DNA of 42,565 bases, from positions 1 through 42,565 of the forward strand of contig JAHIMF010000075.1 in the NCBI GenBank assembly GCA_018896645.1. Direction: 5' to 3'. This DNA comes from Patescibacteria group bacterium. Its GTDB lineage: Bacteria; Patescibacteriota; Patescibacteriia; UBA2591; JABMQE01. Position 1 is the stretch's first letter. Each line of letters begins with the position of its first letter. The notes beneath the pieces are model-generated. The model saw nothing but the letters and a program-made list of their open reading frames with translations. It was not told where the DNA came from and searched no databases. The translations under genes and the position numbers were made by a program. Positions 1,496 through 29,713 of the stretch are shown piece after piece.

Positions 1496-1573
1496 GGGGT
1501 CGTAGCTCAGCTTGGTTAGAGCGTCTGCCTGTCACGCAGAAGGTCGAGGGTTCGAGTCCCTTCGGCCCCGCCA
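1496..1573 (+). tRNA. tRNA-Asp (GTC)
   Basis: The acceptor stem GGGGTCG pairs with CGGCCCC. The D arm contains TAGCTCAGCTTGGTTAGAG. The anticodon loop CTGTCAC gives anticodon GTC, and the T arm contains GGTTCGAGTCCC. The CCA end is encoded (1571-1573). A hairpin with CTCCAC/GTGGAG arms follows at 1583-1598. Confidence 0.97.
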
Positions 1574-1749: not shown

Positions 1750-1819
1750 CTTTAGCGAAGGGGGAAGCTTTAGTAAAGGGTGACAACGAAGGGTGACAGT
1801 ATATCTAATATATTTTGTT

Positions 1820-2062
1820 ATGTATTTTGTTTATTTGCTAAAATTAGTAAATAGAAAAATTTATACTGGATCAACTCCTGACATCAAACATAGAATTAAA
1901 GAACATAAACTAGGAAAATGTAAAGCGACAAAAGACTTTCGTCCAGTAAAATTAATTTGGTGCTGTATTTTTCCTAAGAGACTTCAAGCAAGACGCTTTG
2001 AAAATTATTTAAAAACTGGATCAGGCCAAGCATTCCGAAATAAAAGACTGATTTGCAACTAA
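1820..2062 (+). CDS. GIY-YIG nuclease-domain protein, stand-alone
   Basis: This is an 80-residue single-domain GIY-YIG protein of the UvrC N-terminal-like type often seen as a stand-alone gene. Visible are the VYLLK strand, IYTGST in place of YIG, the helix-start arginine in HRIKEHKLGK, and the glutamate-bearing RRFENYLKTGSG segment. I chose the ATG at 1820 because the family normally starts at M-x-FVYLL; an upstream ATG at 1793 would add nine hydrophobic residues. It may cut DNA, but the substrate is unknown and no partner gene adjoins it. Confidence 0.8.
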   Translation: MYFVYLLKLVNRKIYTGSTPDIKHRIKEHKLGKCKATKDFRPVKLIWCCIFPKRLQARRFENYLKTGSGQAFRNKRLICN

Positions 2063-2321
2063 AAACGCCTGTGTATATCTCTCCTTGCCTAAAATCCCCT
2101 AAAACGCTATAATAAACAAAGAAACCAAGAAATAAAGAAATATAGAAATAAAAAGAAATAACTAAAAAAACTCCAATGACTAGTCTTCATTTCTTAATTT
2201 CTTTATTTCTTAATTTCTTTTTCCCTAAAATCCTCTCACTAATAATAAAAAATAAGCTGTTTTTAATCCCCACCAGGCATTAAATAATTTAAATATTAAC
2301 ATTTTAATTTTAAGAAAAACT

Positions 2322-2501
2322 ATGGCAGAAGACACATTAGTCGTAGGCTCAAAAGTTAAGGCCTACATCAAATCAAAGGGTTGCCATACATCTAGTGACG
2401 CACTCGGGGCTCTGAACGAAAAAGTTCATGAAATCCTCGATAAGGCCACCGCAAGATGTCAAGGCAACAAACGTTCAACAGTGAAGCCGCAGGATATGTA
2501 A
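2322..2501 (+). CDS. bacterial histone-fold protein
   Basis: A 59-residue ORF that begins MAEDTLVVGSKVKAYIKSKG and ends NKRSTVKPQDM. The layout is that of a minimal histone fold: a short first helix (KVKAYIKSKG), a long central helix (SSDALGALNEKVHEILDKAT) and a final helix after the R51-x-T53-x4-D58 signature. That Arg-Thr/Asp signature is the structural hallmark of archaeal histones and of small bacterial histones such as Bdellovibrio Bd0055. It would be expected to bind DNA as a dimer; stacking into filaments cannot be judged. There is no strong Shine-Dalgarno site, and a strong terminator follows directly. The family call rests on my recognition of the pattern. Confidence 0.75.
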   Translation: MAEDTLVVGSKVKAYIKSKGCHTSSDALGALNEKVHEILDKATARCQGNKRSTVKPQDM

Positions 2502-2518: not shown

Positions 2519-2577
2519 AGGTCCTCCTATGTTTTGAGGACCTAACTAAAAAATCCTCTTTTTTATGAGGATTTTTT
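2519..2577. terminator. double terminator after the histone gene
   Basis: The first hairpin is AGGTCCTC (2519-2526) with GAGGACCT (2536-2543). The second has arms AAAAAATCCTC and GAGGATTTTTT at 2548-2577, so it has a U tract on either strand. Confidence 0.85.
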
Positions 2578-2644
2578 GGTTGGCTAATATTAGCCAATTT
2601 ATCCTTTAAAAAAACAGATATCCATTATTTTTAAACCTCCACCC

Positions 2645-2765: not shown

Positions 2766-3680
2766 ATGGCAAAGGAAAAAACTGGAACAATGGCCGGTGC
2801 TGCTGTGATAGCCGGAGCAGGCATTGAAGCTGGCAAGGGAATAATCCGTGACCTTGCTAAAAATGTGGGGGAACATCTAACCAGCCAGTTCAAAGAAAGC
2901 ATTGGCGGACTCGGCGTAAAAGATGAAGGCAACTACAATGCCGTCATCAACGCCTGGGCCACTGCCACGGGAAAAAAGGAAAATGATCAGGGTGAAAAAA
3001 TTGAAGTCCTGGTATTTTCTGATGGCGTAACTAACGCCAAAAAGCTGGAAACATGGATGAAGAAAAAGTTAACCTCACGGCAACAACGCTGGTTCATAAG
3101 AGTCATCGCCAATATGCTGGCCGATGAACTTGCAGTTCGGGAAAAGGGCACTGAAAAAAAAGATGCCTTATCTGTCACCGAAGCCGCGATTGTTATCGCC
3201 CGTGAACTTAATAGCCTAGTAAAGGATTATCCTGACGAAAATGAATGGATAACCGCTCTCTACGCGCGACGGCTTATCAAGCAGGACTATCTTGATGAGG
3301 GCTACCAGCTTTTCAAGCAATACCTCATTGCCGCGGGAGAGGTGTGGGAGGAAGTTATTGAAAAGATGCGGGACCGAACCAAAGAAGCCGAGCAAAGATA
3401 TCAAGTTTTTATGTTAGAACTTGCTGGAGCCGAGATAATTGACGATTGGCTCGACTCTTCCGATGGATCCGCATCAAAATCCTTTCGAACAAGTATCGGC
3501 TCTATGACTCGGGAAAAGGCCATAAAAACCCTAGGGCAGTTAGTCGCCTTGCCTAACGATAAACAACGCACGAAAATGGCAAGTGTCCGAGGGTTAATGA
3601 AAGTTAATACTCTCGCCGCAAGAATGCGAGCCCGCGCTAAAAAGGTGAGGCAGGAAACCAAGCGCCTCAAGAAAAAATAA
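2766..3680 (+). CDS. helical protein of unknown function, operon gene 1
   Basis: A 304-residue protein I do not recognise. The ATG at 2766 has an ideal AAGGAGG six bases upstream, so I prefer it to an ATG at 2724. The first ~30 residues are Gly/Ala-rich (MAGAAVIAGAGIEAG), the middle is long amphipathic helices, and the last 30 residues are strongly basic (RMRARAKKVRQETKRLKKK), suggesting nucleic acid or membrane-surface binding. There is no signal peptide or clear membrane helix. Base composition is richer in G+C than nearby genes. It is the first gene of a two-gene unit with its own promoter and terminator, so it probably works with the membrane protein downstream. Confidence 0.85.
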   Translation: MAKEKTGTMAGAAVIAGAGIEAGKGIIRDLAKNVGEHLTSQFKESIGGLGVKDEGNYNAVINAWATATGKKENDQGEKIEVLVFSDGVTNAKKLETWMKKKLTSRQQRWFIRVIANMLADELAVREKGTEKKDALSVTEAAIVIARELNSLVKDYPDENEWITALYARRLIKQDYLDEGYQLFKQYLIAAGEVWEEVIEKMRDRTKEAEQRYQVFMLELAGAEIIDDWLDSSDGSASKSFRTSIGSMTREKAIKTLGQLVALPNDKQRTKMASVRGLMKVNTLAARMRARAKKVRQETKRLKKK

Positions 3681-3726
3681 CGGAACAGAAAAAACGGTTA
3701 AGCAAAGGTAAAAAAGGGGGTTTATG

Positions 3727-5118
3727 ATGCCTGACAAAGATGGAGTGGAAGGAACGATCGATAAGGTGGCCGAAGAAACAAAAGCCTTCTTCCAAAAGCT
3801 GGAAGATTGGCTAAAAGAGGGAAAGGTGCCATTGCTGGCCTTTATCCTCGCGGCCATTTATGTGGTAGGGAGAAAATGGGGCGATGAGATTGTTGAATGG
3901 CTTGAAGGATTTATGGACATTGCGGGCGCCTACAGCGAGCGTCTCGCTCTTCATGGAAAAAGGATAATCAGAAGAGTAAGAGACAGGGCCAAGCGATATA
4001 GTATAATCTATCGCTGGGCGGCCTTGATTCTCTTGGGCGTTGCTATTATATTCCTTCTGATCGGTTCTGGCTGGCCAGGATATTGGGCAGGCGGGACTGT
4101 TGTGGGAATATTCCTGATAGTTCTTGCAATCCTCTACCCAGTATTAATAGGTGTAATCCTTGGTTCCGTTGCCAATGGTTTAAGTAAAATCAATAAAAAA
4201 TGGACTGCCCTTCAACTGGCAATCAGATGGGTCAACGGACTCATGCTTGCTGTCTTGCTTTTTCTGACTCTCTGGGCAATTCATTTGGATATTGGCAGGG
4301 ACTTCTATGGCCTGGCAGTACTGGCAGTTTGCACAGCACTGGCGGTTACAATCTTTGCTGTTATTGTTGGTAAATCTGGCAATCTGCTTTACTACCTAGC
4401 CATAATTACGCTGGTGGCTAGCGTGATAGGTTATGCCTTTTTCTATGGTTTCTTTGAGGCCGGCAAAACAGAGGCCGACTTGGCAAACATCATACAAGCG
4501 GGTGGCGCTAACATTTATGGCCAACCCCGAACTAGCCAAGTTCAACTGCCCCTTCACAAGCGGGAAGGCAAGAATAGAATTGCCTCCACTGTCTTGAAAG
4601 ACAGCACTGATGTCGGAGAGTTCATGGTGTTTGACCAAGAGGGCTTTAAGCCAAACGGGAAAGGAGAGCTCCTAATTGGGATAATTCGTAAAACTCCCAA
4701 GGGTTACTTAGGAAGGGAACAAGATAAGTATTATGTTCCCAGTCGACTAGTAACCCTCTATCGATTAGGAGGCCCGAAAAGGGAGGTTACAAAGCCCCCT
4801 CCGCCTGACGATGACTCCACGAGCGCCCAGGAGGAGCGCGGTGATGTCGAACCAAGACCGACTCCTGCCACGACTCCGTCGACTTACGCCTCTGGCACCC
4901 CGGTTCACCTCGAACCCCATGAAGTCAAATTCTTTGGCTTGAGGGTCCGGGCGAACCAGTTAATAACGTTTAGGACCAATGTGGCTGACTGGTGGTTATT
5001 AGACAGCAACGGAGACATCCATTTTGCCAAAACCCGAGTTCGTTGGCGAGTTGACACTCCAGGTGAAATAACCGTGAAGGGGGGCAACCGTCCTATGACA
5101 CTCTGGGTAGATCTTTAA
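3727..5118 (+). CDS. six-helix membrane protein with soluble C-terminal domain, operon gene 2
   Basis: A 463-residue protein I do not recognise. Hydrophobic segments lie at about residues 34-47, 97-114, 121-150, 170-186, 194-214 and 221-243. After them come a soluble region (250-355), a Pro/Asp/Ser/Thr-rich linker near 358-395 (KPPPPDDDST) and a C-terminal domain of about 65 residues that looks beta-rich. GGGGG upstream could serve either ATG 3724 or ATG 3727; 3727 has the more usual spacing. It lies 46 bp after gene 1 and ends 12 bp before a strong terminator. The linker and terminal domain suggest exposure at the cell surface or interaction with a partner, but this is inference. Confidence 0.85.
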   Translation: MPDKDGVEGTIDKVAEETKAFFQKLEDWLKEGKVPLLAFILAAIYVVGRKWGDEIVEWLEGFMDIAGAYSERLALHGKRIIRRVRDRAKRYSIIYRWAALILLGVAIIFLLIGSGWPGYWAGGTVVGIFLIVLAILYPVLIGVILGSVANGLSKINKKWTALQLAIRWVNGLMLAVLLFLTLWAIHLDIGRDFYGLAVLAVCTALAVTIFAVIVGKSGNLLYYLAIITLVASVIGYAFFYGFFEAGKTEADLANIIQAGGANIYGQPRTSQVQLPLHKREGKNRIASTVLKDSTDVGEFMVFDQEGFKPNGKGELLIGIIRKTPKGYLGREQDKYYVPSRLVTLYRLGGPKREVTKPPPPDDDSTSAQEERGDVEPRPTPATTPSTYASGTPVHLEPHEVKFFGLRVRANQLITFRTNVADWWLLDSNGDIHFAKTRVRWRVDTPGEITVKGGNRPMTLWVDL

Positions 5119-15283: not shown

Positions 15284-18200
15284 TCACATCCTCAGCGCCC
15301 GCTCTTTCTCAAGCACCTTAACCGTGGTCTTCACGACAGTATCCGAAATCAAAGAAATTGAATCAATGCCGCACTCTACTAAAAACTGGGCAAAGTCCGG
15401 AAAATCACTCGGCGCTTGACCGCAGATACCAATTTTCTTGCCGTTTTCTCGCGCCGCTTTTATCACCTGTCTCACCAGATCTTTGACGGCTTTATTTCTC
15501 TCGTCATACACGTGGGCCACAATTTCGCTGTCTCTATCCACGCCAAGCACCAGCTGGGTTAAATCATTAGAGCCAATGGAAAAACCGTCAAAAATTTTAA
15601 AAAACTCTTGAGCTAAAATTACATTGGAAGGGATCTCGCACATCACATAAACTTCTAATCCGTCTTTACCGCGTTTCAAACCGCATTTTTCCATAATTTT
15701 TAAAACTTTCTTGCCTTCTTCCACTGTTCGGCAAAAGGGCACCATTATTTTTACATTAATAAGTCCCATCACTTCCCGCACTCGTTTTAAAGCATAACAC
15801 TCCAGTTCAAATGCTGGCTTAAATTTCTCATCATAATAACGGGAAGCCCCGCGCCAGCCGATCATGGGATTTGACTCTTCGGGCTCAAAATATTTTCCGC
15901 CTAAAAGCGTAGCGTATTCATTAGTTTTAAAATCGCTTAAACGGACAATCACATCTTTAGGATAAAAAGCCGCGGCAATTTGGGCAATCCCTTCGGCCAA
16001 TTCATAAATATAATAATCCGTCTTTTTCTTGTATTCACGCGTTTTCTCCTCAATCTGTTGCCTCACTGATTTGTCTTTAATCTTGTCAAAATTAACCAAA
16101 GCCAAAGGATGCACTCCTATATAACTGGAGATTATAAATTCCTCCCTAGCCAGCCCCACGCCGTCATTGGGAATAAACGATTCCCGCATCGCTTCTTCTG
16201 GATTTCCAATATTCATCATTATTTTTGTTTTTGGCTGCTTTAAAGTTTTAAGATTTGTCTTATTGACCTTGTATTTTACCTTGCCCTGATAAACAAAACC
16301 CTGCTCGCCGCCAGAGCAATCAACCGTGACTTCCTGGCCAGTTTTCAAAACTTTAGTGCCGTCTTCTGTTCCCACGATACACGGGATACCAAGCTCCCGG
16401 CTGACAATCGCCGCGTGGCAAGTTCTACCCCCGCTATTCGTCACAATCCCGGCGGCAATCTTCATAATCGGCTCCCAGTCCGGGTTAGTCATCTCGGTTA
16501 CTAAAACTTCGCTCTTCTGAAAAGAATGAATCCCCCGAGTATCTTTAATCACATTCACTTTGCCCGCACCTATCTTATTACCAACACTTTTACCTTGAAT
16601 TAATATTTTTCCTTTTTGGATCAGCCGATACTCCTCAAGCACATTAACATCACGAAGTGCCTGTACTGTTTCTGGCCTAGCTTGCACAACATACAATTCG
16701 CCGGTAATCCCATCTTTAGCCCATTCAATATCCATTGGTTTTTTATAATGCTCTTCAATCGCCATCCCCCATTTTGCTAACTTTAAAACCTCGTCATCGG
16801 TAATAGCATATCTCTTGCGTAAGCCTTTGGGAACCGGGATATTCTTTGTTGGACCTTTACCCGGCACCCTGCTATACACCATCTTAATTTTTTTATCGCC
16901 CGGTCGTTTAGAAATAATCGGTTTGAATCCTTGCTTAAGGGTAGTTTTAAAAACATAATATTCATCCGGGGTTACTTTGCCCTGAACAATATTTTCACCC
17001 AGACCATAGATGGAATTTACTAGAACTACATCCCGAAAGCCAGACTCGGTATCAATCGTAAATGTTACCCCGCTCGCTCCTTTATCCGCCCGCACCATTT
17101 TCTGCACCCCGATGGAAAGGGAAACCTGAAAATGATCAAAACCCTTATCCTCGCGATAACTAATGGCTCGATTTGTAAAAAGTGAAGCAAAACATTTCTT
17201 GCAGGCAGAAAGTAAGTCGTGCTCACCCTTAATGTTTAAATAAGTCTCCTGTTGCCCAGCAAAAGAGGCTGAATTATGAGTAATTATCCCTCCAATCCCT
17301 GCAGCAAAATTTTCAACCCCCGGAACTACAAAATCATACACTGGCTCACTATAATCTATTGGTTCAATCTTCTTGATTTGGTCCCAAAGCACTGATTTGC
17401 TTGCCAACAAATTATCAAAAAATCCTATTTTATAAGATTTGACAACTTCTCTTAGCTTCTTCGTTCCAAAACTGCCGGAAAAAATTGCCTTATTCCAAGG
17501 GCTCATCCCTTTCTTAAATCTACCCCTTTTATCATAGTATATGTATCTTCCTTGAATCTGCTTAGGTGTCTCGTAAAATGTCTTGTGACAAAATCGACAA
17601 TAAAACCTTTCTTTACCCTTATAATAACTTGACCTCTCTATTTCCTTCTTGCAACTTGGGCATACATTAATTTCAGTCTCCTTTTTGGGTAAACTATCTA
17701 TAAAGTGTTCTTTAATTTCTTTTGACAAAAATTCATTGATATTTATTCTATTCTTAAATTGAATATTCTTGGTCTTCTTGTAATTCTCAATCAGCTGATC
17801 CAACTTACAAACCTTGCTTTTAACTGTAAAGCCAACAAGATTTCTAAAACTCTCTGCCTCATGATAAGGAATCACAATATCAATACTCTTGCTCCTTTTT
17901 CGCAAATAAAACTCAACTCCCAGTATCTCTAACAACTTTACTATTCCGCCAATCAACATCTCGGATGTAGAAGTGTAAGATATTATTCTATGAGAAACAT
18001 AACCATCGCCATCAAAACATCCTCTTAAAAATTCCCCAATCAATTCTATGTTCCACTCAAAAACAAATTCTGGAATTTTTTTAATACGACAAGATCTTCC
18101 CTTTCCCTTTTGACTGCCAATAGGCTCCCCTGTAACTATGTGCAAAAATCTAACCAACGACTTGCAATAAACCCTTAAAGTGCTTCTATTAACCTTTTGT

Positions 18201-19270
18201 CTATTATATAATCTTAAAGATTTGCAAAAACTAATTACCCGACTCATTACTTCTCTGTCACTGTTTGTAATCATCACACAATTATTTCTATAAGTAGAAC
18301 CTTCGGCTAAATAAATACCCAAAAAATAAGCAAAGTCTTTGGTAAAATAAATTCTACTTGGCAGCCCATGTTGAATTTTCCAGTTGCTAGACTTATTTTT
18401 AATCTTTATTAAACCATTATCCTCTACGACATCATCGCCTTCTATATAATCTAAAAAATCTAAATAATCATCTATACTTAAAGTCCCTTCAGGTAATTTT
18501 TTTATCACCGGTAACTTCTCGTTGCCCTCCAAGTCTCCGATTGAAGCCACTTCGCTTGGCTTTAATGTTCTCTCATCTAAAACAATTAACGTATGATTTG
18601 GTGAAACTGTTATTTCTCGACCCGTAACAGTAGTTATTTTATACAATCTATCCTCACTTGTTTTATGCTTATAAATTTCTTTGACTTTGCACCATCTAAT
18701 CTCATTATCATCTAAAGCTGGAATTTCAATCTCATAACCTCTACCACCACCAACCAAATCATAAATCTCTTTCATCTTCCGATAATAAATTTTTCCGTCA
18801 ATTTTAACTATGATATGTTCATCTTCAGATATACTCGGCAAATCCTCTGCTGTCGCGCTGGAGCGGACAGCAACATCTACCCGCGAGCTCTTGTATTCCC
18901 GACTCAACTTTTTATAAGCTTGGGTAATTTCTGTTTTTAGCTGCTCTGGCAATTTGGCTTTTAAAATCGCCTTTCGCACTTTAGCGCCGCGCTCCATCAA
19001 ATTTCTGACGTTATGCGTGTCTAAATCTTTCAAAATATCTTTTATCTCTTGTTCAATCCCGGCTTCCTTTATAAATTGCTGATAAGCATACGCGGTAACA
19101 GCAAAACCATTAGGAATTTTAATTCCCTCTTTTGTAAGTTTTGAATACATCTCACCCAATGAAGCGTTTTTGCCGCCAACTGCGGGAATGTCTTTAATAG
19201 TGATTTCCTTGAACCAAAGGATGTTGGATTTTCGAAGACCCCGAGCTTGTTGAGGAGTATTTTTTTGCAT
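15284..19270 (-). CDS. ppsA: phosphoenolpyruvate synthase containing an intein
   Basis: PEP synthase makes PEP from pyruvate and ATP, releasing AMP and phosphate, and feeds gluconeogenesis. I chose the ATG at 19270 because the family N-terminus (ILWFKEITIKDIPAVGGKNA) begins 17 residues later; an upstream ATG at 19366 adds 32 unrelated residues. The extein parts total 807 residues, a normal length. They comprise the ATP-grasp domain (AVRSSATAEDLP ... SASFAGQQETYLN), the phosphohistidine domain (GGRTCHAAIVSRELGIPCIV) and the PEP/pyruvate domain (MCEIPSNVILA, FSIGSNDLTQLVLGVDRDS). The intein lies between EDLP and SASFAGQQ, so function depends on splicing. GC and codon use of the intein look poorer in G+C than the exteins. 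Confidence 0.95.
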   Translation of the reverse strand: MQKNTPQQARGLRKSNILWFKEITIKDIPAVGGKNASLGEMYSKLTKEGIKIPNGFAVTAYAYQQFIKEAGIEQEIKDILKDLDTHNVRNLMERGAKVRKAILKAKLPEQLKTEITQAYKKLSREYKSSRVDVAVRSSATAEDLPSISEDEHIIVKIDGKIYYRKMKEIYDLVGGGRGYEIEIPALDDNEIRWCKVKEIYKHKTSEDRLYKITTVTGREITVSPNHTLIVLDERTLKPSEVASIGDLEGNEKLPVIKKLPEGTLSIDDYLDFLDYIEGDDVVEDNGLIKIKNKSSNWKIQHGLPSRIYFTKDFAYFLGIYLAEGSTYRNNCVMITNSDREVMSRVISFCKSLRLYNRQKVNRSTLRVYCKSLVRFLHIVTGEPIGSQKGKGRSCRIKKIPEFVFEWNIELIGEFLRGCFDGDGYVSHRIISYTSTSEMLIGGIVKLLEILGVEFYLRKRSKSIDIVIPYHEAESFRNLVGFTVKSKVCKLDQLIENYKKTKNIQFKNRININEFLSKEIKEHFIDSLPKKETEINVCPSCKKEIERSSYYKGKERFYCRFCHKTFYETPKQIQGRYIYYDKRGRFKKGMSPWNKAIFSGSFGTKKLREVVKSYKIGFFDNLLASKSVLWDQIKKIEPIDYSEPVYDFVVPGVENFAAGIGGIITHNSASFAGQQETYLNIKGEHDLLSACKKCFASLFTNRAISYREDKGFDHFQVSLSIGVQKMVRADKGASGVTFTIDTESGFRDVVLVNSIYGLGENIVQGKVTPDEYYVFKTTLKQGFKPIISKRPGDKKIKMVYSRVPGKGPTKNIPVPKGLRKRYAITDDEVLKLAKWGMAIEEHYKKPMDIEWAKDGITGELYVVQARPETVQALRDVNVLEEYRLIQKGKILIQGKSVGNKIGAGKVNVIKDTRGIHSFQKSEVLVTEMTNPDWEPIMKIAAGIVTNSGGRTCHAAIVSRELGIPCIVGTEDGTKVLKTGQEVTVDCSGGEQGFVYQGKVKYKVNKTNLKTLKQPKTKIMMNIGNPEEAMRESFIPNDGVGLAREEFIISSYIGVHPLALVNFDKIKDKSVRQQIEEKTREYKKKTDYYIYELAEGIAQIAAAFYPKDVIVRLSDFKTNEYATLLGGKYFEPEESNPMIGWRGASRYYDEKFKPAFELECYALKRVREVMGLINVKIMVPFCRTVEEGKKVLKIMEKCGLKRGKDGLEVYVMCEIPSNVILAQEFFKIFDGFSIGSNDLTQLVLGVDRDSEIVAHVYDERNKAVKDLVRQVIKAARENGKKIGICGQAPSDFPDFAQFLVECGIDSISLISDTVVKTTVKVLEKERALRM
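17273..18835 (-). mobile_element. 521-residue intein with LAGLIDADG homing endonuclease and zinc ribbon
   Basis: The intein begins with Ser1 (SISEDEHIIV) and ends GGIITHN, followed by Ser+1 of the extein. Block B is TGREITVSPNHTLIV (residues 71-85, with the conserved TxxH-like PNHT). The two endonuclease motifs are FLGIYLAEGS (171-180) and LRGCFDGDGYV (270-280). Block F is VYDFVVPGVENFAAG (499-513). A CPSC...CRFC zinc ribbon at about 392-416 is an extra DNA-binding module. All residues for class 1 splicing (Ser1, block B His, penultimate His, terminal Asn, Ser+1) are present. The endonuclease acidic residues (E in LAEGS, D in FDGDG) are intact, so it may still be mobile. Confidence 0.93.
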
Positions 19271-19461
19271 GGAAAATTTTTTGATTAATAAAATTGTTTC
19301 AGTCAGAGCTAAGCTCATCTGTGTCAGCTTTGCCTTTGGCTGAAATAAGGTTAACAAAAATAACAAAATTATTAACTTTATTAACTACTGTATTAACCTA
19401 TTAACTACTGCGATTGTTCAAAATGTTGCGTGTTGCGTGTTTCGTGTTTCGTGAATCGTGA

Positions 19462-26376: not shown

Positions 26377-27867
26377 TTACTTTGTTACTTTTCTAAGCCA
26401 CTGCCCTGTATAACTTTTACTCACATTTTTCACTTCATCCGGCGTTCCCTCCGCAATCACGTATCCACCCTTATCCCCGCCTTCCGGACCTAAATCAATA
26501 ATCCAATCCGCATTTTTAATCACATCCATATTATGTTCAATTACCAAAACACTGTTGCCCCTATCAACCAGCTGGTGCAATACCTGGAGCAAGCGGTCAA
26601 CATCAGCAAAATGAAGACCGGTTGTTGGTTCGTCTAAAATATATAAAGTTTTACCAGTAGCCCGGCGGGAAAGTTCAGTGGCTAATTTCACTCGTTGGGC
26701 CTCGCCGCCGGAAAGCGTGGTCGCGGATTGGCCCAGATGAATATAACCCAAACCCACATCATAGAGGGTTTTTAATTTTTGATAAATAATCGGAATGTTT
26801 CTAAAAAACGCTATTGCTTCCTCTACGGTCATTTCCAAAATATCAGCAATATTTTTGCCTTTATAATGAATCTCCAAAGCTTCTCTATTGTATCGCCTAC
26901 CATGGCAAACCTCGCACTCCACATAAACATCCGGCAAAAACTGCATTTCTATCCGCACCATGCCATCGCCTTGGCAGGCCTCGCATCTTCCGCCCTTAAC
27001 ATTAAAACTAAACCTGCCGGCTTTATAGCCCCGAATTTTGGCTTCCGGCACTTGGGTAAAAAGATCTCTGATATAAGTGAAAACACCGGTATAAGTCGCC
27101 GCGTTTGAGCGTGGGGTTCTGCCAATTGGCGACTGATCAATATTAATCACTTTATCAATATGTTCTATCCCCAAAATCTCTTTATGTTTACCGGGCAAGT
27201 CTTTAGCGTGATATAGCTGCTGACTTAAGGCTTTAGCTAAAATTTCTATCATCAAAGTAGATTTGCCGCTGCCCGAGACTCCAGTCAAACAAACAAACCT
27301 GCCCAAGGGAATCCTAACATTAATATCTTTTAAATTGAACGCGCTTGCCCCTTCAATCTCAATCGCCTTGCCATTGCCTTTACGTTGTTTCTTTCTCTTT
27401 TCAACCTTAAGTTTACCTGACAAATACTGGCCAGTTATTGATTTTTTATTTTTCTCAATCTCCTGCGGCGTACCTACGGCCACAATCTCGCCTCCGTGTT
27501 CGCCAGCGCCAGGTCCGATATCAATAAGCCAATCCGCGCTCCGCATGGTCTCTTCATCATGCTCCACCACAATCACGGTATTTCCAAGGTCTCGCAGATT
27601 TTTTAAAGTCTCAATCAGTTTGGCGTTATCCCTCTGGTGCAAGCCAATGGTCGGCTCGTCTAAAATATAAATTACTCCAGTCAGGGCCGAGCCAATTTGC
27701 GTGGCCAGCCGAATCCTCTGCGCTTCGCCCCCGGAAAGCGTCTGCGCCGCCCGATCCAAAGTAATATAATTCAAACCCACGTTTTCTAAAAACGAGAGCC
27801 GATTAGAAATCTCTTTCAAAATTTGGTTAGCTATTTTTTTGTCGCGAGGGGATAATAGACTTGACAT
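26377..27867 (-). CDS. uvrA: UvrA, C-terminal half (split gene)
   Basis: The 496-residue distal part of excinuclease subunit A. It carries the signature of ATPase I ([14 protein letters not shown], residues 44-57) and its Walker B ([16 protein letters not shown]). All of ATPase II is also here: Walker [10 protein letters not shown] at 196-204, zinc module CEACQGDG...CEVCHGRR, signature [14 protein letters not shown] and Walker [11 protein letters not shown]. The proximal half is at 28295-29713. The first ATG (27865-27867) lies on the antisense of the -35 box of the inserted cassette, without a Shine-Dalgarno site, so expression may be weak. An in-frame extension without ATG reaches back to a TGA near 27923. 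Confidence 0.93.
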
Positions 27868-27888
27868 TAATTTTAAAATCCGTAAAAT
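27861..27888 (+). promoter_or_regulatory. promoter of the cassette inserted in uvrA
   Basis: TTGACA (27861-27866), a 16-bp spacer and TAAAAT (27883-27888). It drives the small gene at 27941 on the strand opposite uvrA. Confidence 0.78.
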
Positions 27889-27940
27889 TAAAGAATCAAC
27901 TCGTTCGTTTTGTTCTTTAAACCATCACTGGGAGATAAAT

Positions 27941-28243
27941 ATGAATTTCAAATACGGGATCGCGCCCGGGCAACACCGACTTTCCTTATCAGAAGAAGAT
28001 ATTAAAGAGCTCAAACTTGGAAAAACCCTAAGATGTGTTATTGACGAAAGTTCACTTTGGGTAAAAGTATTCAAGTCAGCAGAACATCTCAAAAATCAAA
28101 ATGTTGTTCCTGTTCTAGACTCAGCCAATAACTACTGCGGTTTCGGTTTTAAAATGTCATTTCTGAAAGACCTTGTTTGCGCCGCTGACCACTGTTTAAG
28201 GGTACCTATTGAGGACGAGGTACTGATAATCTGTTTAGTCTAA
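27941..28243 (+). CDS. 100-residue protein of unknown function inserted in uvrA
   Basis: It starts MNFKYGIAPGQHRLSLSEED and continues IKELKLGKTLRCVIDESSLW, with a mixed alpha/beta look and two cysteines near the C-terminus (LVCAADHCLRV). I do not recognise it. ATG 27941 has GGGAG seven bases upstream and lies about 50 bp after a good promoter; an upstream ATG-free extension or the ATG at 27839 is less likely, because the latter lies upstream of the promoter and reads antisense uvrA. A terminator follows 24 bp after the stop. It is a complete expression unit, antisense within uvrA. Confidence 0.8.
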   Translation: MNFKYGIAPGQHRLSLSEEDIKELKLGKTLRCVIDESSLWVKVFKSAEHLKNQNVVPVLDSANNYCGFGFKMSFLKDLVCAADHCLRVPIEDEVLIICLV

Positions 28244-28267
28244 AGCAGGGCGAGGCTTCCTCGCAAG

Positions 28268-28296
28268 CCAGGATAAATTATTATTCTGGTTTTTTT
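28268..28296 (+). terminator. terminator of the cassette inserted in uvrA
   Basis: Stem CCAGGATAA / TTATTCTGG (one G-U pair), loop ATTA, then TTTTTTT. Read on the other strand, the end of this T tract supplies the TAA stop of the uvrA N-terminal half (28295-28297). Confidence 0.85.
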
Positions 28297-29713
28297 ACTT
28301 CGCCAATCCCGCAAAAAACGCCTTGCATTCTTCCACCGTCATCTCTGTCACCTCGCTAATATTCTTCCCTCCCACTGTCACTGCTAAAGCCTCGGGCCTT
28401 AAACGTTTACCCCCGCAGCTTGGGCATAATTTTACTCGCATATATTTCTCTATCTCTATTCTGATATAATCAGATTGAGTTTCTTTGTAACGTCTCTCTA
28501 AATTTGGAATCACGCCTTCATATTTAGTACTTAAATCGCCATCAAAACTTTCCGACGTATAATCAACTTCATATCGTTTATTCCCGGTCCCATAAAGTAC
28601 AATCTCCAGCTGGTTTTTCGTTAAATTCTTAACTGGCTTATTGATAGAAAAACTATTATCTTTGGCCACGGCCTCTAAAATTTTAAAATACCAGCCCTGA
28701 TTCACGGAAATCCGGGACCAAGGCCGAATTGCGCCCTGGCTAATGCTTAAATTTTTATTAGGAATCACCATATCCGAATCCACTTCCAGTTTTGTGCCTA
28801 ATCCGCTGCAAACCGGACAAGCTCCATACGGTGAGTTAAACGAAAAACTCCGAGGCTCAATTTCTGATAGGTTAATATCGCATTTTGGGCAAGAAAAATG
28901 CTGACTAAACAAAAATTCCTTATTATCGTCAGGCAAGCATACTATGACCAAACCATTACCTAAATCTAAAATAGTTTCCAGTGATTCAGCCAGGCGAGAC
29001 CGCTCTTGTTTAGTTGGTTTAGAATTAATTTCCAAACGGTCAACCACCACTTCCAAACTGTGTTCTTTCATCTTATCAACTGTTAAATCTTCTGCTTCTT
29101 CAATAGAATAAATTGTGCCGTCAAAACGCACCCGCACATATCCGGCTTTCCGCACCTCTTCTAACACATGCTTATGCTCACCTTTTTTATCCCGAATAAT
29201 CGGTGCTAAAAGCATTAACTTGACTCTTTTTTCCCGCTCTGAAGCAATTTTAAATATCTTCTCAATAATTTGGTCATTAGATTGCCGGCTAATCTCATCC
29301 CCGCATTTTGGACAATGAGGCTTTCCAATTCGCGCAAATAAAAGACGGAGATAATCATAAATCTCCGTAGTTGTTCCAACTGTTGACCGCGGGTTATGGC
29401 TTACGTTTCTTTGGTCAATGGAAATCGCTGGCGCCAAACCGTCAATTTGGTCCACATCCGGCTTATCCATCAGCCCCAAAAACTGGCGGGCATAAGAACT
29501 CAAACTTTCCACATATCGGCGCTGGCCCTCAGCATAAATCGTATCAAAAGCCAGAGAGGATTTACCGCTGCCCGAAAGCCCGGTAATCACCACAAATTTA
29601 TTCCGCGGAATTTCCACATCAATATTTTTAAGATTATGGACCCGGGCGCCTTTGATGACAATGGAGTCCTTTGTCGCGGTCGTCTTATTATTTTTAATAT
29701 TATTCCTGGGCAT
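28295..29713 (-). CDS. uvrA: UvrA, N-terminal half (split gene)
   Basis: The 472-residue proximal part of excinuclease subunit A, which finds bulky DNA damage and loads UvrB. It has Walker A of ATPase I (GLSGSGKSS, 45-53), the Q-loop region [20 protein letters not shown], the UvrB-interacting/insertion region, zinc-type CPKCGDE, CPKCDIN and CPVCSGLG, and ends [15 protein letters not shown]. Intact UvrA would continue into the ATPase I signature, which is in the other ORF. The two pieces sum to 968 residues, close to a normal ~940. Unless the halves assemble, ATPase I is broken. uvrC lies nearby on the other strand. Confidence 0.94.

Follow-up and report, generated by a model that had tools for sequence, protein, structure and literature searches.

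A putative face-to-face histone in a Patescibacteria genome that also encodes HU

The histone gene and its locus

Patescibacteria are very small bacteria that are known almost solely from their DNA. The stretch analyzed here, called the window, is the complete 42,565-nucleotide contig JAHIMF010000075.1 (C75) of a 1.33-Mb Patescibacteria assembly (96% complete, 3.6% contamination, 92 contigs). It contains an open reading frame (ORF) of 59 codons, with an ATG start and a TAA stop, whose product is MAEDTLVVGSKVKAYIKSKGCHTSSDALGALNEKVHEILDKATARCQGNKRSTVKPQDM (59 amino acids, 6.4 kDa, isoelectric point 9.1). This protein is a genuine bacterial histone, and probably a nucleoid histone of the face-to-face (FtF) alpha3 kind that is tetrameric, wraps DNA and works with HU. 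The ATG is the sole start-type codon upstream of the histone core, within an open frame of 81 amino acids. Between the genus of the window and a sister genus, nonsynonymous differences (pN 0.11) are far rarer than synonymous ones (pS 0.77, saturated), and the frame is therefore under purifying selection.

The nearest named relative is a metagenome-assembled genome of Candidatus Falkowbacteria (85% identity), in which a tRNA-Asp gene, a small ORF with a GIY-YIG domain and the histone gene are arranged in the same order as in the window (Table 1). The GIY-YIG ORF lies ~260 bp upstream of the histone gene, and an ORF without assigned function lies >200 bp downstream. From this spacing, the one-gene transcription unit proposed in the initial annotation is plausible. 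Around the gene, 5 promoter-like sites were found where 3.3 are expected, which is near chance, and none could be placed confidently. Of the double terminator also proposed there, one strong hairpin stands, and it probably works in both directions; the hairpin preceding it lacks a U-tract and is within chance. A third, AT-rich hairpin is the sole one listed by a terminator scan. Also near the gene are an AT-rich inverted repeat upstream and two ORFs downstream.

Table 1. Features of the window, with positions counted from its first nucleotide
Feature	Position	Strand	Evidence or remark
tRNA-Asp(gtc)	1496..1573	+	Neighbor conserved in sister genus, 97.5% identity over 80 bp
Small GIY-YIG domain ORF	1793..2062	+	Order upstream of histone gene conserved in sister genus, 33% identity
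AT-rich inverted repeat	2118..2230		AAGAAAT-type units, ~70% over 103 bp
Histone gene (FtF/HLp-like alpha3 histone, probable class)	2322..2501	+	ORF, profile matches, conservation, AlphaFold2 model, Foldseek
Helix alpha1 codons, residues 9-18, with invariant S10, K11, K13, K17	2346..2375	+	Model, alignment
Helix alpha2 codons, residues 25-48, with predicted tetramer residue R45	2394..2465	+	Model, mapping to HLp
Codons 45-59: R45, N49, R51, T53, D58 (predicted dimer-dimer contacts, signature, RD clamp), truncated alpha3	2454..2498	+	Mapping to HLp, alignment
Weaker 8-bp hairpin, no U-tract	2519..2543	+	z -1.33, within chance
Strong intrinsic terminator hairpin, U-rich arm, A/U tracts	2545..2580	+	-17.3 kcal/mol, z -6.07, 0/200 shuffles as good
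Third hairpin, AT-rich	2578..2599		Sole one listed by terminator scan
Two ORFs (304 amino acids; 464 amino acids, membrane-like)	2766..5118	+	No Pfam match for either
Phosphoenolpyruvate synthase-like gene	15284..19366	-	Apparent intein
uvrA in two halves	26377..29713	-	472 and 496 amino acids, ~430 bp apart

Sequence family and predicted fold

The initial annotation described a minimal bacterial histone of 59 residues that carries an R-x-T-x4-D signature in a three-helix layout. The signature is present at the C-terminus as R51-S-T53-V-K-P-Q-D58. RxTxxxxD occurs in 3 of the 305 small stop-bounded frames of the window, however, and by itself is therefore weak evidence. When the protein was searched with phmmer against sequences in the PDB, the matches were HLp (9QT0; E 8e-17), Bd0055/HBb (0.001) and HTkC (0.07). 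A profile built from 38 relatives strengthens all three (HLp, 3e-28; Bd0055/HBb, 3e-13; HTkC, 4e-11), so that the profile search suggested as a check does recover solved histones. The score for Pfam CBFD_NFYB_HMF (PF00808) is 17.8 bits, below the gathering cut-off of 21.4, and our assignment to the histone fold therefore leans on the profile and structure matches to PDB entries. An NCBIfam match was dismissed as meaningless.

An AlphaFold2 monomer model, built on the alignment of the 38 relatives, has a mean predicted local distance difference test score of 93.5. DSSP assigns helices to residues 9-18 and 25-48 and a short turn (HHH) to residues 56-58. In a Foldseek search of the PDB, the nine highest-ranking matches are all chains of HLp, HBb/Bd0055 or HTkC, with HLp at the top (template modeling score, TM, 0.88-0.91) and TM values of 0.85-0.88 for HBb and HTkC. 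Both the fold and the profile matches whose absence would have spoken against a histone were thus found, and since they agree across many genomes, we rejected a chance motif. The layout needs one amendment: with just one turn in place of a third helix, the protein belongs to the alpha3-truncated histones and does not have three full helices.

Relation to known histone classes

In alpha3 histones (Schwab et al. 2024), alpha3 is shortened to 3-4 residues and the RxTxxxxD signature is present (PMC11390915). Both features are seen here, the truncation in the predicted model. R48 and N52 of the family profile are the hallmark of FtF histones, and bacterial dimers such as HBb have neither (PMC11390915). 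These positions, which make the dimer-dimer contacts and are R49 and N53 in HLp, correspond to R45 and N49 in the window histone. More fully, the HLp tetramer residues R49/N53/R55 align with R45/N49/R51, and the RD clamp R55-D62 with R51-D58. Ten DNA contacts are named for HLp, and six of them are identical (HLp=window: S14=S10, K15=K11, K17=K13, K21=K17, T27=T23, T57=T53); the other four are mildly changed (A13 to G9, G29 to S25, T56 to S52, R59 to K55). Residues V8, S10, K11, K13, K17, A42, R45, N49, R51, T53 and D58 are invariant in the 38 relatives. The conserved lysine that FtF histones have at profile position 16, with other alpha1 lysines, is represented by the invariant K11, K13 and K17.

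HLp of Leptospira perolatii (PDB 9QT0-9QT2; PMC12701072) is 58-59% identical to the window histone in the structural alignment. The two proteins share the fold, the core length, the signature with its RD clamp, the R/N/R tetramer residues, the alpha1 lysines and the loop DNA contacts, although the N-terminus before the core is shorter in the window histone. FtF-like histones of Planctomycetota (most of sequences L005-L080) are ~50-68% identical and have SKVKAYIK and NRRSTVKPQD-type stretches in common with it. HTkC (PDB 9F2C) and haloarchaeal FtF histones (Haloferax D4GZE0) share the fold and the FtF class (TM 0.85-0.86), but are archaeal and more distant (~30% identity for HTkC, 41-46% for plasmid copies from haloarchaea, a group that has FtF histones).

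Bd0055/HBb of Bdellovibrio bacteriovorus (PDB 8CMP, 8FVX) was named as an example in the initial annotation. It shares the alpha3-truncated fold, RxTxxxxD and the alpha1 lysines, but at 34-37% identity it is distant, and the window histone belongs instead with the Leptospira-type face-to-face histones, HLp being its best relative in the PDB. A DNA-bending dimer like HBb would fit the common fold and the profile match to HBb (TM and E values above). However, the FtF residues that bacterial dimers lack (PMC11390915) are present and invariant in relatives, HLp is far closer in sequence (E 8e-17 versus 1e-3), and the window histone clusters in our tree with HLp and not with HBb. We therefore disfavor a Bd0055-type dimer, which appears improbable. 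HLp is a tetramer both in the crystal and in solution (PMC12701072). Since the window histone has R45/N49 and the HLp contact residues, the closest mechanism is a tetramer that wraps ~60 bp rather than a bending dimer, and its homology to HLp suggests that it may tetramerize and wrap DNA in the same way.

Some database records label FtF histones "DUF1931". The window histone does not resemble DUF1931 pseudodimers, in which one chain holds two histone folds, having 59 amino acids, a single fold and the DNA-contact residues. As C21 and C46 occur together in few Patescibacteria sequences, we rejected a metal site formed by these two cysteines as a conserved feature.

Distribution and phylogeny

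Related histones were detected in both sampled genomes of the family, in 2 of 26 genomes of the order and in 10 of 381 genomes sampled from the class, a count that leaves out an eleventh match, to a ClpC-like protein. When the phylum was sampled evenly, matches came from 29 of 380 genomes, including a false match in G142, discarded as a ClpC-like N-domain, and a longer, different histone-fold protein in G447. In a distant Patescibacteria family (f157), 52 of 57 genomes have a histone and 52 of 57 have HU, and the two proteins therefore coexist stably. The check for HU that the initial annotation recommended was positive, with one HU gene in the genome of the window, and we thus rejected the idea that the histone replaces HU. 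HU is also found in 9 of the 10 histone-bearing genomes of the class, counting that of the window. Two Leptospira species, by contrast, are reported to lack HU (PMC12701072).

Several proteins in other Patescibacteria depart from the single-domain form. Three sequences from other families (L104, L105 and L108, in G537, G718 and G598) have two tandem histone domains in one frame of 127-167 amino acids, each domain with its own RKTVR-type signature; DUF1931 pseudodimers, unlike these, are said to lack DNA-binding residues. Two longer proteins (~116-119 amino acids), L119 in G447 and L130 (G069:C7:1330-1488), have a weak histone-fold match, and L130 lies ~140 bp from an HU gene.

The patchy occurrence in the order and class, the HU gene in the same genome, and the adjoining tRNA-Asp gene and GIY-YIG ORF could also be explained by a local or minor DNA-binding factor that retains the histone fold but is not a general nucleoid protein; it might, for instance, be a regulator or belong to a mobile or tRNA-linked island. 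However, a second genus of the family has the same gene order at this locus, and the stable coexistence of histone and HU in family f157 also speaks against this reading. An origin on known phages or plasmids was rejected, as phage records gave no match to the window histone and plasmid matches are haloarchaeal only; matches in IMG/VR are distant (35-43% identity). We consider such a local factor unlikely, and retain a nucleoid histone as the probable function.

The tree (111 rows, 55 columns) was made from a sample drawn with the window histone as query, and in it Patescibacteria fall into two groups. The first (20 rows, support 95/93) holds the window histone and lies beside HLp and two planctomycete sequences; a clade with support 97/95 joins the window histone, HLp, other Patescibacteria and the two planctomycete sequences. 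The second group (16 rows, 98/83) comprises families f157 and f231. Patescibacterial histones of the window clade have 3-7 residues before the core, often acidic, whereas many planctomycete relatives have lysine/alanine-rich tails of up to ~40 residues.

Public genomes with relatives of the window histone are mostly Planctomycetota, and the contig comes from an assembly of 92 contigs with some contamination, as might be expected if a planctomycete or spirochaete contig had been mis-binned. Against this, the order of tRNA-Asp, GIY-YIG ORF and histone gene recurs in another patescibacterial genus of this family, and patescibacterial histones are found on long contigs (455 kb and 320 kb) and, in the distant family f157, in a single-contig genome. 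They also form clades of their own and lack the planctomycete lysine tail. Because of the synteny and the long contigs, contamination as the source of the gene is very unlikely, and a mis-binned contig of this kind is scarcely credible.

Proposed function

By analogy with HLp, dimers would form by pairing of two 59-residue chains via helix alpha2. A ring-like tetramer would then arise from two dimers in contact at each of their ends, where the C-terminus of alpha2, loop 2 and the one-turn alpha3 supply the interface (R45, N49 and R51). DNA would run around the exterior of the tetramer, held by S10/K11/K13/K17, T23/S25 and S52/T53/K55, with ~60 bp wrapped and no sequence preference, a mode of binding demonstrated for HLp. 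The histone would be expressed and act in the nucleoid alongside HU, rather than in its place.

Some observations weigh against this proposal. Two HLp residues that touch R49/S52/N53 on the other side of the interface differ in the window histone (T61 is replaced by Q57, F63 by M59), and S52 is G48. DNA affinity or compaction may be lower because the protein lacks a basic tail. Finally, HU is encoded in the same genome, so that the histone may not be the chief organizer of the nucleoid.

Other features of the window

The uvrA gene is present as two halves, and the gap between them contains an oppositely oriented ORF of 134 amino acids, for which Pfam gave no match. Rfam gave no intron match at the split, which is either a gene-splitting insertion or an assembly fault. 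The phosphoenolpyruvate synthase-like gene appears by eye to carry an intein, with several hundred extra residues that end in HNS.

Significance

Histones have been reported from <2% of bacterial genomes, and bacterial FtF histones chiefly from Spirochaetota, Planctomycetota, Bdellovibrionota and Myxococcota (PMC12701072). A full-text literature search for histones together with Patescibacteria or the candidate phyla radiation (CPR) returned no relevant paper, and the main text of the principal survey mentions neither Patescibacteria nor CPR, although its supplementary tables may list such sequences (PMC11390915). The window histone is, on good evidence, a protein of a known kind, and we found no published description of such a protein from this phylum.

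More tentatively, histones might be a permanent constituent of chromatin in several Patescibacteria lineages, acting with HU in genomes of ~1 Mb. This would imply at least two gains, one of the HLp-like tailless clade and one of a second clade that is near-universal in one family and includes the tandem two-histone proteins.

A conserved, tailless, probable FtF histone that coexists with HU in Patescibacteria extends the reported range of bacterial FtF histones, and would extend to this phylum the rare packaging of bacterial DNA by an HLp-like histone. It also offers a tail-free natural case in which to test DNA wrapping by the core alone of bacterial histones, and a natural case for how a histone and HU share the nucleoid.
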